Source: Oscillospiraceae bacterium
GTDB lineage: Bacteria > Bacillota_A > Clostridia > Oscillospirales > Oscillospiraceae
Direction of reading: 5' to 3'
DNA: 5,348 bases
NCBI GenBank assembly: GCA_016302005.1
Contig: JAEDOK010000109.1
Span: forward strand, 1 to 5,348
The position numbers were made by a program, and so were the translations under genes. A model generated the notes under the pieces. The model saw only the letters and a program-made list of their open reading frames with translations. It did not search any database and was not told the DNA's origin. Positions 121 through 5,348 of the stretch are shown here, piece after piece (the stretch's first letter is position 1; every line of letters begins with the position of its first letter).

Positions 121-214
121 GGCGGCGTGGTGTTATATGGTCTGCCATGGTGCGACCCGCTGTGGATAGCATATCGCGCAAGCGAAGGAGCCGGTTCGAG
201 ACCGACCGCCGCCA
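121..214 (+). tRNA. tRNA-like element 1, long form, anticodon not assignable
   Basis: Seen: GGCGGCG (121-127) pairs perfectly with CGCCGCC (207-213), followed by an A discriminator but no encoded CCA. A T-arm sits directly inside (190-206) with loop TTCGAGA and one C-A mismatch. A hairpin TCGC-GCAA-GCGA (174-185) lies 4 nt before the T-arm. TGGT (128-131) can pair with GCCA (144-147) around a D-loop-like stretch containing GGT. No loop with T33 and a plain 7-nt anticodon is evident. One fold gives loop GCGACCC (152-158) on a weak stem. Another pairs TGCGA (151-155) with TCGCG (174-178, last pair a G-T wobble) around 18 nt, close to the anticodon stem of the true tRNA at 422. It is about 93 nt, the size of a class II tRNA. 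It could be a decayed tRNA, a tRNA-mimicking RNA or an unusual functional tRNA. A plain Leu, Ser, Tyr or Sec tRNA is not supported. Confidence 0.5.
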
Positions 215-233
215 ATTTACACATTATATATAT

Positions 234-326
234 GGCGGCGTGGTGCAAGCAGCCTCCCACGATCCGGGAGAAGGAGAAGCACGCGCACACATCCGCGAGA
301 AGCAGGTTCGAGGCCTGCCGCCGCCA
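234..326 (+). tRNA. tRNA-like element 2, long form, anticodon not assignable
   Basis: Seen: GGCGGCG (234-240) pairs perfectly with CGCCGCC (319-325), then A326 and CGCA instead of CCA. The T-arm (302-318) is perfect, five pairs around loop TTCGAGG. The first 12 bases match those of element 1. CTCCC (254-258) pairs with GGGAG (266-270) around a 7-nt loop ACGATCC. Read as an anticodon arm this gives GAT, but position 33 is C rather than the near-universal T. The D-arm region (241-253) is only 13 nt, too short for a normal D-arm. CGCG (282-285) can pair with CGCG (294-297) as an extended variable arm, 4 nt before the T-arm as in element 1. The conserved ends with a remodelled middle suggest a tRNA-derived or tRNA-mimicking RNA. 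Whether it is charged or decodes anything cannot be told. Confidence 0.5.
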
Positions 327-357
327 CGCATGGGACAGGTTGGACAGACAATGATGG

Positions 358-414
358 GTCATGACGGATGCGCGGCAACGCTGCCCTCGGAATCCGGGCC
401 GGTGAAAATCCGGC
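358..414 (+). other. Hairpin cluster between tRNA-like element 2 and tRNA-Ile
   Basis: Four inverted repeats lie almost end to end: the palindrome GTCATGAC (358-365), GCG-GCAA-CGC (372-381), CGG-AAT-CCG (388-396) and a perfect 5-bp/7-nt hairpin GCCGG-TGAAAAT-CCGGC (398-414). The last has the geometry of a tRNA T-arm but not the TTCRA loop. CGGAT (365-369) can instead pair with ATCCG (392-396). No acceptor stem encloses the cluster. It could be spacer RNA needed for processing, the remains of another tRNA-like element, or a small structured RNA. No family is recognised. Confidence 0.3.
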
Positions 415-421
415 AATATAT

Positions 422-497
422 GGCGGTATAGCTCAATCGGTCAGAGCTTGCGACTTATAATCGCAGGATGCGGGTTCGAGACCCGATGCCGCCACCA
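422..497 (+). tRNA. tRNA-Ile with UAU anticodon, CCA encoded
   Basis: A full cloverleaf is visible. The acceptor is GGCGGTA (422-428) with TGCCGCC (487-493), including one T-G wobble. The D-stem is GCTC (431-434) with GAGC (444-447), and its loop contains GG. The anticodon stem is TGCGA (449-453) with TCGCA (461-465) around CTTATAA. The variable loop is 4 nt, and the T-arm has loop TTCGAGA with one G-A mismatch at its base (470/486). Discriminator A494 and CCA (495-497) follow. T33 is at 455 and the anticodon TAT at 456-458, which reads AUA. Bacteria normally decode AUA with a CAU-anticodon tRNA modified to lysidine by TilS, so a UAU tRNA is unusual and more often met in phages and a few small-genome lineages. 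AUA codons do occur in the genes downstream. It could help a phage decode AUA independently of the host. Confidence 0.93.
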
Positions 498-711: not shown

Positions 712-1251
712 ATGGCAAAGAAAATCAACACAGACGAGCTGATCGAGATGTTTGCGACGCAAACATCGAAAATGGTAGACGAGAAGCTCACGCCGCTGCT
801 GAATGCCGTTGACCAGCGGATCGGGCAGTTTTCCGAGAAGCTGGATGCGCTCGGCAACAGGCTGCACGACATGGAGCTGGAGGCAGACCGCCTCGAAAAC
901 AGCGTGATGCAAAACAGCCAGAGGGTGGCGGCGGTATCGAAGCGCCAGAGCATCCAGCAGGAGAAGATCGACGAGATCGAGAAGCGGCTCAACGAGATGG
1001 CCGCCGACGACGGCGCTGCCGTGATCCGAAAGAAGGACGGACGCGTCGCTCTGGATAAGGACGCCGTATACGATGAGCTCGACCGCATGACGCGCAACCG
1101 GCACAGGGAGGCCATGCGCGAGCTCAGCCGGCTCGGCATTGTGCTGCGAAACGGGTACGACGGGAAGTACACAACGCCCGTGTGGGATCCGAGAAAAGCC
1201 GGGTGCGTCCGGGCGGTAATCATTCTGGACGGAGGTAGTGCAGATGACTGA
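712..1251 (+). CDS. Coiled-coil protein with small C-terminal domain, unknown function
   Basis: ATG 712 follows AAAGGAG (699-705) by 6 nt, and the protein is 179 residues. Residues about 8-96 show a long heptad-like run of hydrophobic positions among Glu, Lys, Gln and Arg, with few helix breakers, so this part is very likely a dimeric or trimeric coiled coil. From about residue 105 the character changes to a compact domain ending in VRAVIILDGG, with aromatic and Gly residues (NGYDGKYTTPVWDP) typical of a small alpha/beta fold. There is no signal peptide or membrane segment, so it should be cytoplasmic. The last 8 nt overlap the start of the HTH gene at 1244, suggesting coupled translation and a shared regulatory module. 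The coiled coil could bring together DNA-binding partners, but that is inference. I do not recognise the family. Confidence 0.88.
   Translation: MAKKINTDELIEMFATQTSKMVDEKLTPLLNAVDQRIGQFSEKLDALGNRLHDMELEADRLENSVMQNSQRVAAVSKRQSIQQEKIDEIEKRLNEMAADDGAAVIRKKDGRVALDKDAVYDELDRMTRNRHREAMRELSRLGIVLRNGYDGKYTTPVWDPRKAGCVRAVIILDGGSADD
1231..1235 (+). promoter_or_regulatory. Ribosome binding site GGAGG that sets the HTH gene start at 1244
   Basis: GGAGG lies 8 nt before ATG 1244 but only 2 nt before the in-frame GTG at 1238. The spacing strongly favours ATG 1244 and makes the protein two residues shorter than the longest open frame. The site lies inside the end of the upstream coiled-coil gene. Confidence 0.8.
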
Positions 1252-1477
1252 GGAGCTGTGGACGCCGGAGGAGGTCGCGCAGCGGTGGAGAATGCAGAAG
1301 CGCACTGTGATGGATATGCTCCGCAGAGGCGAGCTTAAGGCATTCAAGGTCGGGCGTATATGGCGCATTTACTACTCCGATGTGCTCCGTTATGAGAAAG
1401 AGCGCGAAAACGACAAGCGAATGAATCAGCCGGAGGTCGCGGCCATGCCGCGCCCGGTCATAAGGAGGATTGTTTAA
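1244..1477 (+). CDS. Excisionase-family helix-turn-helix DNA-binding protein
   Basis: The protein is 77 residues. Residues 6-50 fit the excisionase/HTH_17 pattern closely: WTPEEVAQRW (helix 1 and start of the turn), RTVMDMLRRGELKAFKVG (recognition helix and wing), then RIWRIYYSDVLRYE, where basic and aromatic residues close the wing. Such proteins are winged-helix DNA binders that bend DNA in excision complexes or act as small transcription regulators. No integrase is visible nearby, so a regulatory role is as likely as excision. The C-terminal tail (about 51-77) is basic and Pro-containing and is probably disordered. The gene overlaps the coiled-coil gene by 8 nt, and its TAA shares bases with the ATG of the MazF-like gene (TAATG), so these genes are translationally coupled. 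It could repress its own operon or antagonise the MazF-like product. The family call is firm; the role is inferred. Confidence 0.9.
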   Translation: MTEELWTPEEVAQRWRMQKRTVMDMLRRGELKAFKVGRIWRIYYSDVLRYEKERENDKRMNQPEVAAMPRPVIRRIV

Positions 1478-1806
1478 TGGGAAACATGAAGGGCCTCGTA
1501 TATTACGAAAATATCGAGAGCTTTAACCGGACCGGGATCATCAACAGCCATCGCCCCGTTGTGATCGTATCCGCTGCACCGACAGGGAACCTGGTCCAGG
1601 TCGTGCCGCTTACCACAAAGGACAATAAGCTGGATGAAAACGACGCACGCGTTCAGGTCAAAGTCAAAAACATGACGAGCTACGCGCTGTGCGCTCAGAT
1701 CCGGACTGTAAACTACAGGGAGCTGTCAAGCTTTCCGATGTGGGTCCTGACGGACAAAGAGACCGAAGATATTAACTGCGCCGTCCGGCGCGTTCTGGCG
1801 GTTTGA
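1477..1806 (+). CDS. MazF/PemK-like protein, possible toxin-type RNase
   Basis: ATG 1477 follows AAGGAGG (1462-1468) by 8 nt; the protein is 109 residues, the usual MazF size. The fold markers are in order: a G followed by VYY near the N-terminus, HRPVVIVS (residues 25-32, like the RPVLVI strand of MazF with its key Arg, here R26), VVPLTT (42-47, matching the strand that carries the catalytic Thr), and ALCAQIRTV (70-78), equivalent to the EQIRTI motif. MazF proteins are mRNA interferases that cut single-stranded RNA at short sequences and are normally held in check by a cognate antitoxin. The Glu before QIRT in classic MazF is Ala here (A73), so activity may be altered. No MazE-type antitoxin is recognisable; the coupled HTH gene upstream is the only obvious partner. 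The protein may be a toxin, a phage regulator on this fold, or an inactive relative. Confidence 0.82.
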   Translation: MGNMKGLVYYENIESFNRTGIINSHRPVVIVSAAPTGNLVQVVPLTTKDNKLDENDARVQVKVKNMTSYALCAQIRTVNYRELSSFPMWVLTDKETEDINCAVRRVLAV

Positions 1807-1828
1807 CCGAAACGAAAGGAGAAGAATT

Positions 1829-2140
1829 ATGGCAAAGAACATCTGTACGGAACGTCTTGAGGACGTTGAGCTGATGACGCAGCTCAACGCGCAGCGGGCA
1901 AGGAACCGAGAGCTTACGGAGAAAATCGAGGCTATGGGTAAGGTCGGAATTGCGCTGACGACGCAGATCGAGCAGGAGCGGGCGAAGCGGAAGAAGGAGA
2001 TCAGCGGACTGACGGCCTTTGTCGGGGTCGGGGCTGCGCTGTGCGCAGCGGGCGCCTGCTGGCTGGCTGCGCCGTGGTGGACGGCGGTCGCGCCGCTTGT
2101 GCTTATGGTGGCAGTGATGCGAAAGGCGGGGTGGATGTGA
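1829..2140 (+). CDS. Coiled-coil protein with C-terminal membrane hairpin
   Basis: ATG 1829 is preceded by an AAAGGAGAAG-type site. The 103-residue protein has two parts. Residues about 8-58 are strongly charged with regular hydrophobic spacing, a likely coiled coil. A basic patch (KRKK, 53-56) then leads into two hydrophobic stretches, about 61-80 and 83-97, separated by the Pro-Trp-Trp turn APWW. By the positive-inside rule, the coiled coil and the short C-terminus should face the cytoplasm, with the two segments forming a membrane hairpin. There is no signal peptide. Small phage membrane proteins of this layout can act in host takeover, superinfection exclusion or lysis control, but nothing specific is seen. 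It lies 22 nt after the MazF-like gene and its TGA overlaps the ATG of an 11-codon frame at 2140. The function is not recognised. Confidence 0.85.
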   Translation: MAKNICTERLEDVELMTQLNAQRARNRELTEKIEAMGKVGIALTTQIEQERAKRKKEISGLTAFVGVGAALCAAGACWLAAPWWTAVAPLVLMVAVMRKAGWM

Positions 2141-3659: not shown

Positions 3660-4345
3660 TGGGAAAGCCTTTTACATCGGTGCAGGACGATTGGATCAGA
3701 AGGAACCATTCTCCCGAGAAGCTAATCCGAGAGCTTACGGCGGAGTTTAACGCCGCGTTCGGAGAACACAGAAGCGTAGACACAATGAAACACCACTGTT
3801 GGAAACTCCTGCTGAAACAGAACGACCGGCGTTTCTCTCATGAGGAAGACCGGTGGCTTTCCGAACACAGCAGGGACGGAAGCTATCTGGATGTGGCGGC
3901 GGAGTTCAATCGGATTTTTTGTCAGAACCGAACGCCGAATGTCATCAAGGTGCATTGCAACAGAGAGCTTCATGTTGGATTCAAAAACCAAAAATATACA
4001 AACAGCTTACCAATCGGAACGGAGGTTGTCCGGAACGGATTCATCTGGGTGAAAGTATCCGACGCCCGATGTAAAAAGAGCGGGAAACTGACAAGCGGTG
4101 CCGTAAACTGGCGGCAGAAATCGCATATCGTATGGGAGCGGCATTACGGCAGCGCGCCGCCGGAGGGATATACGATCGTGTTTTTGAACAGAAACACAAG
4201 AGATTGTAGCATTGAAAATCTCTACGCAGTAAGCCCGCGAGTGATGCGAGAGATGTCAAAAAAGAAATGGTGGAGCACCGACAGAGAGTTGACATTAACG
4301 GCAATCAAGTGGTGCGAGCTCTTTTATGCGATGAAGGATTTATAG
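3659..4345 (+). CDS. Phage HNH-type protein with two N-terminal SANT-like repeats, catalytic site eroded
   Basis: The protein is 228 residues. Two repeats (about 4-52 and 58-106) share the pattern of aromatic-x-x-x-x-D-x-W, an alternating helix, then EFN...F and a conserved His-Cys, typical of the Myb/SANT-like helical DNA-binding repeats often fused to phage HNH nucleases. The C-terminal part (about 150-192) has the HNH_3-like frame: KSHIVWERHYG (154-164), then PPEGYTIVFLN, then SIENLYAV (184-191). Related phage HNH proteins usually have GH or DH where this one has Y171/F175, and RN where it has R181-D182, so at least two expected metal-site positions are changed; H156 and N187 remain. It may be an inactive DNA-binding derivative or have shifted ligands. 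No good ribosome binding site lies just upstream, so translation probably depends on reinitiation at TAATG. The family is clear; nuclease activity is doubtful. Confidence 0.85.
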   Translation: MGKPFTSVQDDWIRRNHSPEKLIRELTAEFNAAFGEHRSVDTMKHHCWKLLLKQNDRRFSHEEDRWLSEHSRDGSYLDVAAEFNRIFCQNRTPNVIKVHCNRELHVGFKNQKYTNSLPIGTEVVRNGFIWVKVSDARCKKSGKLTSGAVNWRQKSHIVWERHYGSAPPEGYTIVFLNRNTRDCSIENLYAVSPRVMREMSKKKWWSTDRELTLTAIKWCELFYAMKDL

Positions 4346-4371: not shown

Positions 4372-5348
4372 GTGAAACTTGGCAGTTTATTCGACGGTTC
4401 CGGCGGGTTTCCGCTTGCGGGGAGCCTGTGCGGTATCGAGCCGGTATGGGCGGCAGAGGTTGAGCCGTATCCGATCGCGGTCACGCGGAGCCGTTTCCCA
4501 CACATGAAACACCTCGGCGATGTGACGAAGGTCAACGGCGCGGACATCGAGCCTGTGGATATTATTACCTTCGGCTCTCCGTGTCAGGATATGAGCGTCG
4601 CCGGGAAAAGAGCCGGATTGAAGCACGAATCGAACGGTGACAACGAGACGACGCGCAGCGGGCTTTTTATGGAAGCGATCCGAATTATCAAAGAAATGCG
4701 AGGTGCTACCAATGGAATATATCCAAGATTTGCTGTTTGGGAAAACGTCGCCGGAGCGTTCAGCAGCAACAAAGGCGAGGACTTCCGAACCGTCCTCGAA
4801 GAACTCATCAAAATCGTCGAGCCGTCAGCCGTTATGCCTGCGGTTCCGAAAAACGGATGGACCTACGCCGACAGTTATTGCGGTGACGGATGGAGCGTTG
4901 CTTACCGAACTTTCGATGCGCAATATTGGGGAGTGCCCCAGCGTCGCCGTAGGATCTACCTTGTCGCAGATTTTGCAGGCGAATGTGCCTGGAAAATACT
5001 TTTTGAGCTCGAAGGCGTGCGAGGGTATTTTGAGACGGGCAGAACGCCGCGGAAAACACTTGCCGGAGATGCTGCGAATCGCACTGGAACAGACGATTGC
5101 GTGGGAGATTGCGTAACACACACGTTCCAAAATACAGGGCAAGGGTGGTGGAATGAATCTGGAGTGGGCACTACGATAAGAACTCCGTGCGGTGGGGATT
5201 CCACGCTTGCGAATGTAGTCGTTCATACCGTAGACGGTAATATCCTTGATGACCAGTATCCGTTTCAGCCTGTGAACATGGTACTTGATGACAATATAGC
5301 GTTTCATCTTCTGCAAGATCCTGTATTCAGCAATGATGTAGTTCCGTG
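4372..5348 (+). CDS. DNA (cytosine-5) methyltransferase, 3' end beyond window
   Basis: The frame is open from GTG 4372 to the right edge, about 325 residues with no stop. Canonical C5-methyltransferase motifs occur in order: motif I LFDGSGG (6-12) for S-adenosylmethionine binding, an acidic residue after the second strand (E29), GD (49-50), motif IV GSPCQDMS (68-75) with catalytic Cys71, motif VI ENV (124-126), and motif VIII YWGVPQRRRRIYLVA (185-199). The region after about residue 200 is the variable target-recognition part; motifs IX and X are not yet reached. The enzyme transfers a methyl group to C5 of cytosine in a specific DNA sequence. The insert ETTRSGLFMEAIRIIKEMR and the ENVAGAFSSN signature are typical of phage-borne members. 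No restriction enzyme is nearby apart from the degenerate HNH-like gene upstream, so protection of phage DNA from host restriction is the likely role. The recognition sequence cannot be deduced. Confidence 0.96.
   Translation, partial: MKLGSLFDGSGGFPLAGSLCGIEPVWAAEVEPYPIAVTRSRFPHMKHLGDVTKVNGADIEPVDIITFGSPCQDMSVAGKRAGLKHESNGDNETTRSGLFMEAIRIIKEMRGATNGIYPRFAVWENVAGAFSSNKGEDFRTVLEELIKIVEPSAVMPAVPKNGWTYADSYCGDGWSVAYRTFDAQYWGVPQRRRRIYLVADFAGECAWKILFELEGVRGYFETGRTPRKTLAGDAANRTGTDDCVGDCVTHTFQNTGQGWWNESGVGTTIRTPCGGDSTLANVVVHTVDGNILDDQYPFQPVNMVLDDNIAFHLLQDPVFSNDVVP

Follow-up and report, generated by a model that had tools for sequence, protein, structure and literature searches.

Allo-tRNAs combine acceptor and T-stem in lengths of 8/4 or 9/3, and mitochondrial tRNAs devoid of a D-arm retain a decoding anticodon loop. 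A type of noncoding RNA that mimics tRNA is known as mascRNA. Reading of the tRNA elbow by RNase P and RNase Z normally requires the D-loop GG. Passages of one study describe the binding of the elbow by these two enzymes, the processing of CCA-less pre-tRNAs by RNase Z, and noncoding RNAs that mimic tRNA and recruit RNase P (PMC4810234). Defenses that cleave anticodon loops are described in parts of two other studies (PMC10264068 and PMC12851939), and the relevant portion of the latter includes a defense that engages the tail, acceptor, and T-arm of tRNA (PMC12851939).

We characterized two tRNA-outline elements, E1 (positions 121 to 214, forward strand; 93 nt plus a discriminator A) and E2 (positions 234 to 326, forward strand; 92 nt plus a discriminator A), in a phage-like window of 5,348 nt (i.e., the whole stretch of DNA that was analyzed). 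Both lie upstream of an ordinary tRNA-Ile(UAU) gene (positions 422 to 497, forward strand; CCA encoded), which was called by ARAGORN and matched Rfam RF00005 with 61.4 bits, and all three share the 5' junction ATAT|GGCGG. In E1, the acceptor strands GGCGGCG (121 to 127) and CGCCGCC (207 to 213) pair at 7/7 positions, a hairpin termed P3 (UCGC-GCAA-GCGA; 174 to 185) is followed by AGGA (186 to 189), and the T-arm (GCCGG-UUCGAGA-CCGAC; 190 to 206) pairs at 4/5 positions, with one C.A mismatch at the second T pair and a TTCGAGA T-loop. In E2, the same acceptor sequences (234 to 240 and 319 to 325) form 7 bp, P3 (CGC...GCG; 284 to 297) is followed by AGAA (298 to 301), and the T-arm (GCAGG-UUCGAGG-CCUGC; 302 to 318) has a 5/5 stem and a TTCGAGG T-loop; P3 of E2 has 4 bp (CGCG...CGCG; 282 to 297) if positions 282 and 283 are assigned to it rather than to the stem P2 described below. 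One T pair differs on both sides between the copies (C-G versus A-U). The original prediction had noted that the two elements share their first 12 bases (GGCGGCGTGGTG), a perfect 7-bp acceptor, and a length of about 93 nt, that CCA is not encoded after either (the discriminator A is followed by ATT in E1 and by CGC in E2), and that exactly 4 nt separate a 4-bp hairpin from the T-arm that follows it, and all of these features were confirmed from the sequence; the 4 nt are purines in both elements. The T-arm geometry, which had been called perfect in both, is so in E2 but not in E1. By reading, E1 has a GG along with a candidate D-arm that is weak and GU-rich, and E2 has no recognizable D-arm and no D-loop GG. 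Scanning the window with tRNA covariance models had also been proposed; the tRNA-Ile was the only tRNA called there by ARAGORN and Rfam, with E1 and E2 left unmatched. An Rfam search of the short stretch from 100 to 420 gave no tRNA match at an E value of ≤10, and neither element matched a tmRNA model.

On these features (an acceptor and a T-arm set in tRNA register, a discriminator A, unencoded CCA, no normal D-arm, no U33-bearing anticodon loop, and a real tRNA downstream), we tentatively favor, at somewhat less than even confidence, the reading of E1 and E2 as tRNA-outline RNAs without a decoding role (i.e., mimics of tRNA ends) that belong to a phage small-RNA/tRNA cluster. That the tRNA outline exceeds chance is well supported: of 2,000 dinucleotide shuffles of the window, 94 contained one or more outlines with a 7/7 acceptor and a T-stem of at least 4/5, and 0 contained two or more; the real window contains three (E1, E2, and tRNA-Ile). 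A similar scan of the 80 best among 369 viral loci with a methyltransferase (1.09 Mb) yielded eight matches, all with 4/5 T-stems and none with 5/5.

The ends of the two elements are identical at 33/37 positions versus 31/50 aligned positions of the centers (Fisher p = 0.006), and the alignment of the centers equals the shuffled level, with 16.5% of 2,000 shuffles scoring as well. This contrast lends modest support to selection on the ends, and could also reflect a recent duplication with replacement of the center, or gene conversion. The earlier argument that drift would hardly spare the ends is thus partly upheld, with the E1 T-stem mismatch standing against it. The leading rival, which we consider almost as likely as the non-decoding reading though still short of even odds, is tRNA gene decay: E1 and E2 would be two remnants, class II-like (Leu-type) or Ile, of a phage tRNA cluster, with centers scrambled or replaced after disuse and ends still intact since these events were recent or the ends were copied from each other. 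The mismatch in E1, the ATAT|GGCGG sequence at all three junctions, and the fit of the length and P3 of both elements to a class II variable arm agree with decay, as do two parallels in other loci: UGGUG stands behind the same acceptor in a tRNA-Leu called by ARAGORN (locus L122), and, in six viral loci, a tRNA-Ile that has a long variable arm begins its D-arm with UGGUGU. The center of E1 also folds just as shuffled sequence does (50.7% of shuffles are as stable, compared with 15.5% for the whole element). Decay is less readily reconciled with ends so well preserved beside centers that align at the shuffled level, with the fairly stable whole fold of E2 (z = -2.11; 6.4% of shuffles are as stable, compared with 23.2% for its center), and with a loop motif, RCGAYCC, that fits both elements.

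This motif lies in the central fold. The minimum-free-energy and centroid fold of E2 (z = -2.11; 7/200 shuffles as stable) contains a central arm (positions 243 to 282, forward strand) in which P2, formed by GUGC (243 to 246) and GCAC (279 to 282), surrounds the hairpin CUCCC-ACGAUCC-GGGAG (254 to 270). In E1, a possible central arm (positions 130 to 172, forward strand) consists of P2, formed by GUGUUAU (130 to 136) and AUAGCAU (166 to 172), around CCAUGGU-GCGACCC-GCUGUGG (145 to 165). The latter fold is suboptimal (-37.1 versus -39.4 kcal/mol for the free minimum), and the 7-nt GCGACCC loop requires that an extra G-C pair of the predicted fold, which leaves a 5-nt loop (CGACC), be kept open. 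Both elements can therefore adopt one D-arm-less architecture (a stem from nt 10 around a hairpin, P3, four purines, and the T-arm), with loops, GCGACCC and ACGAUCC, that both fit RCGAYCC. When the center of E1 was shuffled with UGGUG held, 928/20,000 shuffles had the architecture of E2, and 11/20,000 had it with a loop at least 5/7 like that of E2; for shuffles of E2, the corresponding counts were 1/20,000 and 0/20,000. The window and 320 loci (3.23 Mb together) contained 183 acceptor-plus-T-arm candidates, and the architecture occurred in 8 of them. Besides E1 and E2, the only two of these eight with an RCGAYCC loop, there were six whose loops are unrelated; three of the six are one sequence and two are GUGGGAA elements, described below. 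These tests were post hoc, and the common fold appears moderately supported and suggestive only. The statement that the centers differ accordingly holds for the alignment and requires correction for the loops. Pseudoknots in the two elements did not exceed the shuffled level (p = 0.45 for E1 and 0.39 for E2).

The E2 hairpin has the exact size of an anticodon arm (5 bp and a 7-nt loop), which, together with the nearly intact acceptor and T-arm, would fit an unusual D-arm-less decoding tRNA with GAU (ACGAUCC in E2) or GAC (GCGACCC in E1) at positions 34 to 36. U33 is absent from both loops, which have C33 and C37, so the originally noted lack of a canonical anticodon loop stands in this respect, although it overlooked the anticodon-arm-sized hairpin of E2. 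The D-arm is poor in E1 and missing, along with the D-loop GG, in E2, and ARAGORN and the Rfam tRNA model were silent, the latter even at an E value of ≤10 on the short stretch. The decoding role that had been entertained is thus very unlikely.

A search for homologs, likewise proposed with the original prediction, turned up none of E1 or E2 among the matches examined from IMG/VR, GTDB genomes, named phages, and viral loci. The common 12-mer plus GGTTCGA retrieved 53 IMG/VR stretches, and the CGCCGCC acceptor strand was absent in register from all of them. The acceptor pattern retrieved nine stretches in GTDB genomes (one tRNA-Leu and eight that, by eye, lack a T-stem), and the leader pattern TATATGGCGG retrieved 23, all of which were tRNAs or chance matches by eye and scan. 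Of 93 stretches with the RCGAYCC loop pattern, 80 were examined singly, and none had the full outline beyond six ARAGORN tRNA-Ile loci; the other 13 entered the architecture scan only. A pattern of the tRNA-Ile anticodon arm had no matches, and a blastn search of positions 100 to 520 against named phages (231 records) matched the tRNA-Ile part only among the 20 matches listed. The methyltransferase-bearing loci that were scanned contained no outline with a 5/5 T-stem and no match to the GUGGGAA family model. Searches with neighboring proteins mostly returned nothing and otherwise one and two proteins without context; among 10 other open reading frames (ORFs) of the window, only the HTH protein matched the 320 loci, weakly (E = 3.7e-4 and 6.9e-4), and the small ORF at 529 had no match.

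By an accident of sequence, the 12-mer search caught a distinct phage tRNA-like family (here, the GUGGGAA family), composed of a 7-bp acceptor, CG, a GCGUG-GUGGGAA-CACGC hairpin, a variable insert, a T-arm (mostly UUCRAAU), and the acceptor 3' strand. Its model matched 21 of the 53 stretches, and the rest resembled chance. IMG/VR members include L004:215-330(+), L019:1760-1852(+), L055:8127-8224(+), L058:6337-6452(-), and L092:7530-7639(-). The exact hairpin, whose invariance was set by the search design, was found in 72 IMG/VR stretches and at 74 sites in loci L001 to L115, with acceptor and T-arm pairing of at least 10/12 at 60 of these sites. In one test, the first downstream 5/5 T-arm was taken blind to the acceptor (53/74 sites, 44 distinct); the acceptor paired at 6/7 or more positions in 42/44 elements, versus 16.7% with partners swapped. 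Covariation in 24 aligned members was strong, with 78 cells changed on both sides versus 20.3 in shuffles (reached by 0/500), a figure biased upward because the members were chosen for pairing, and both-sided changes affected 7/7 acceptor pairs and 4/5 T pairs. In the 42 counted elements, the shortest insert has 14 nt and the longest 195 nt. Pseudoknotted inserts appear frequent but not universal: among 37 inserts of 30 to 110 nt (5/42 were left out by length), an H-type pseudoknot was found at p ≤ 0.05 in 13 and none in 4 (median p = 0.085), and these tests are not independent because several inserts are related. Discriminator-CCA was encoded in 0/42 elements, and CCA directly followed the acceptor in 3/42.

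ARAGORN calls overlapped 0/51 element copies of this family, with an ARAGORN tRNA also present in 9/50 loci holding a counted element, and Rfam matched none of the elements in 19 distinct loci (14 at gathering thresholds and 6 at E ≤ 0.1, one in both). A 64-nt member had partial matches only (E of about 6) among 50,697 named phage records. In full-text literature, with most subscription journals and all of bioRxiv outside the searched body, such phage RNAs were unreported among the matches listed. Two tRNA-Ser genes called by ARAGORN, L051:3162-3252(+) and L078:3895-3985(+), score 43.4 and 35.9 bits, respectively, with the family model; in these, the acceptor and CG precede GCGUG-GUGGGACACG or GCGUG-GUGAGACACG, and a normal anticodon arm follows. 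For the element L058:6127-6225(-), the family model and the Rfam tRNA model give 37.8 and 37.1 bits, respectively. The family may thus have arisen from tRNA-Ser genes of phages by replacement of the anticodon arm. Some members lie a few bases from ordinary tRNA genes (tRNA-Trp and tRNA-Met; L092:7453-7639(-) and L004:145-330(+)), which suggests shared arrays. At L146:5322-5469(+), in L073 (reverse strand, 3861 to 3996), and in L130 (reverse strand, 1135 to 1222), tRNA-like phage sequences were also observed in which the ends are intact and the middle is longer than usual.

Membership of E1 and E2 in the GUGGGAA family was considered, as they share its outline and the top two window matches of its model are E2 (20.9 to 21.6 bits) and E1 (12.8 bits), scores that are partly circular because the loci of the model were first caught by the elements' own 12-mer. 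The same model gives 17 to 21.6 bits to canonical class II tRNAs in tRNA-rich loci and more to the tRNA-Ser genes of the family's own loci. The D-hairpin motif is missing from E1 and E2, no pseudoknot exceeds chance, and their T-loop is TTCGARR, versus TTCRAAT in the family. Membership was rejected as largely refuted and is the least probable of the readings; with hairpin and pseudoknot absent and class II tRNAs scoring alike, E1 and E2 are filed apart, with the same outline and a different interior. In our view, the GUGGGAA family is a stronger lead than E1 and E2.

Among the proteins encoded in the window are an excisionase-like HTH protein, an HNH endonuclease, and a C5 cytosine methyltransferase, whose DNA has its best named-phage matches (approximately 67 to 70%) in phages from Oscillospiraceae, Acutalibacteraceae, or human feces. 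A MazF/PemK-like gene (PF02452; positions 1238 to 1806, forward strand) and an HTH gene directly upstream represent a possible toxin-antitoxin or regulatory pair. Two relatives of the MazF-like protein and a single relative (96%) of the protein at 712 to 1248 were found, and both proteins are rare. A 159-aa ORF (4637 to 5116, forward strand) in another frame of the methyltransferase ORF (4372 to 5346) is probably mechanical, and a weak Rfam match to the type II hammerhead ribozyme (1805 to 1888, forward strand; 21.8 bits, cutoff 37, E = 0.55) is probably due to chance. Upstream of E1, a terminator-like stem (85 to 104) is followed by T's, a type of site that also arises in shuffles (0.7 expected by chance). 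The segment directly before the tRNA-Ile (330 to 421, forward strand) contains hairpins, including a T-arm-sized GCCGG-UGAAAAU-CCGGC, and was rejected as a third element, its whole fold resembling shuffled sequence (z = -0.25). The possibility of an integration-site remnant was dismissed, given the presence of both tRNA ends.

Taken from the sequence, the observation of E1 and E2 is real, with corrections, and its interpretation is partly supported. The non-decoding reading draws on the outline beyond chance, the conserved ends beside centers at about the shuffled level, the common architecture with its RCGAYCC loop, the precedent of the GUGGGAA family, in which phages keep tRNA outlines with replaced centers, and the elbow binding by RNase P and RNase Z and CCA-less processing by RNase Z described in part of PMC4810234. 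Against it stand the E1 T-stem mismatch, an E1 center that folds no better than shuffles (that of E2 does so slightly), a common fold that was recognized post hoc, is not the free minimum of E1, and competes with an extra pair in the E1 loop, the lack of homologs in our searches, the absence of a D-loop GG in E2, and an end conservation that duplication or gene conversion could explain. Under the non-decoding reading, E1 and E2 would be transcribed together with the tRNA-Ile cluster, RNase P would cut at the ATAT|GGCGG junction, and RNase Z would cut after the discriminator, the route of CCA-less precursors; the matured RNAs may gain CCA and would persist as short stable RNAs. Acceptor, T-arm, and discriminator A are present in both; given the missing D-loop GG of E2, such processing is no more than plausible. 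The acceptor/T half would engage enzymes that read tRNA ends, and the remodeled center would evade anticodon-loop nucleases. An RNA with a tRNA end and no anticodon could compete with tRNAs for a defense that engages the tail, acceptor, and T-arm, and the likeliest use would be as a competitor or decoy for host factors directed at tRNA ends, with a mere processing mark between transcripts as the second-best candidate. The decoy function, taken on its own, is a guess that we consider improbable.

If E1 and E2 are made and stable, phages put the tRNA outline to a non-decoding use, and standard tRNA finders overlook such RNAs. It is conceivable, though on balance unlikely, that tRNA-outline RNAs of phages form a broad, unannotated class whose decoding half is replaced by other structured RNA (i.e., a natural tRNA scaffold that carries exchangeable cargo). 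One branch would be the GUGGGAA family, perhaps derived from phage tRNA-Ser, and an independent branch, in a gut-type phage, would be the D-arm-less E1 and E2 with their RCGAYCC loops. Through its covariance model, its clearly covarying helices, and its presence in dozens of phage contigs, the GUGGGAA family makes the role of phage RNAs without an anticodon arm testable, the candidate roles being decoy, scaffold, and processing mark.

Among known systems, bacterial class II tRNAs (Leu/Ser) resemble E1 and E2 in the 7-bp acceptor, the UG followed by GUG, the T-arm, the extra hairpin before it, and the length of about 93 nt; unlike them, E1 and E2 have neither a normal D-arm nor a U33 anticodon loop and are undetected as tRNAs, and E2 has 31 nt between the central hairpin and the T-arm. 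D-arm-less mitochondrial tRNAs share the acceptor, central arm, and T-arm, whereas E1 and E2 have C33 and a phage setting. Allo-tRNAs differ from the 7/5 acceptor/T-stem of both elements. The mascRNA-type elements have a tRNA outline possibly serving end maturation alone, but they are eukaryotic and are likened to E1 and E2 by outline alone. Phage tRNAs that evade anticodon nucleases, as described in part of PMC10264068, share the phage tRNA setting and altered anticodon loops, but are proposed there to replenish decoding tRNAs. The GUGGGAA family shares with E1 and E2 the acceptor, 2 nt, an arm from nt 10, a replaced center, a T-arm, and the unencoded discriminator-CCA, and is set apart by its GCGUG-GUGGGAA-CACGC hairpin and often pseudoknotted insert, neither of which E1 and E2 possess.
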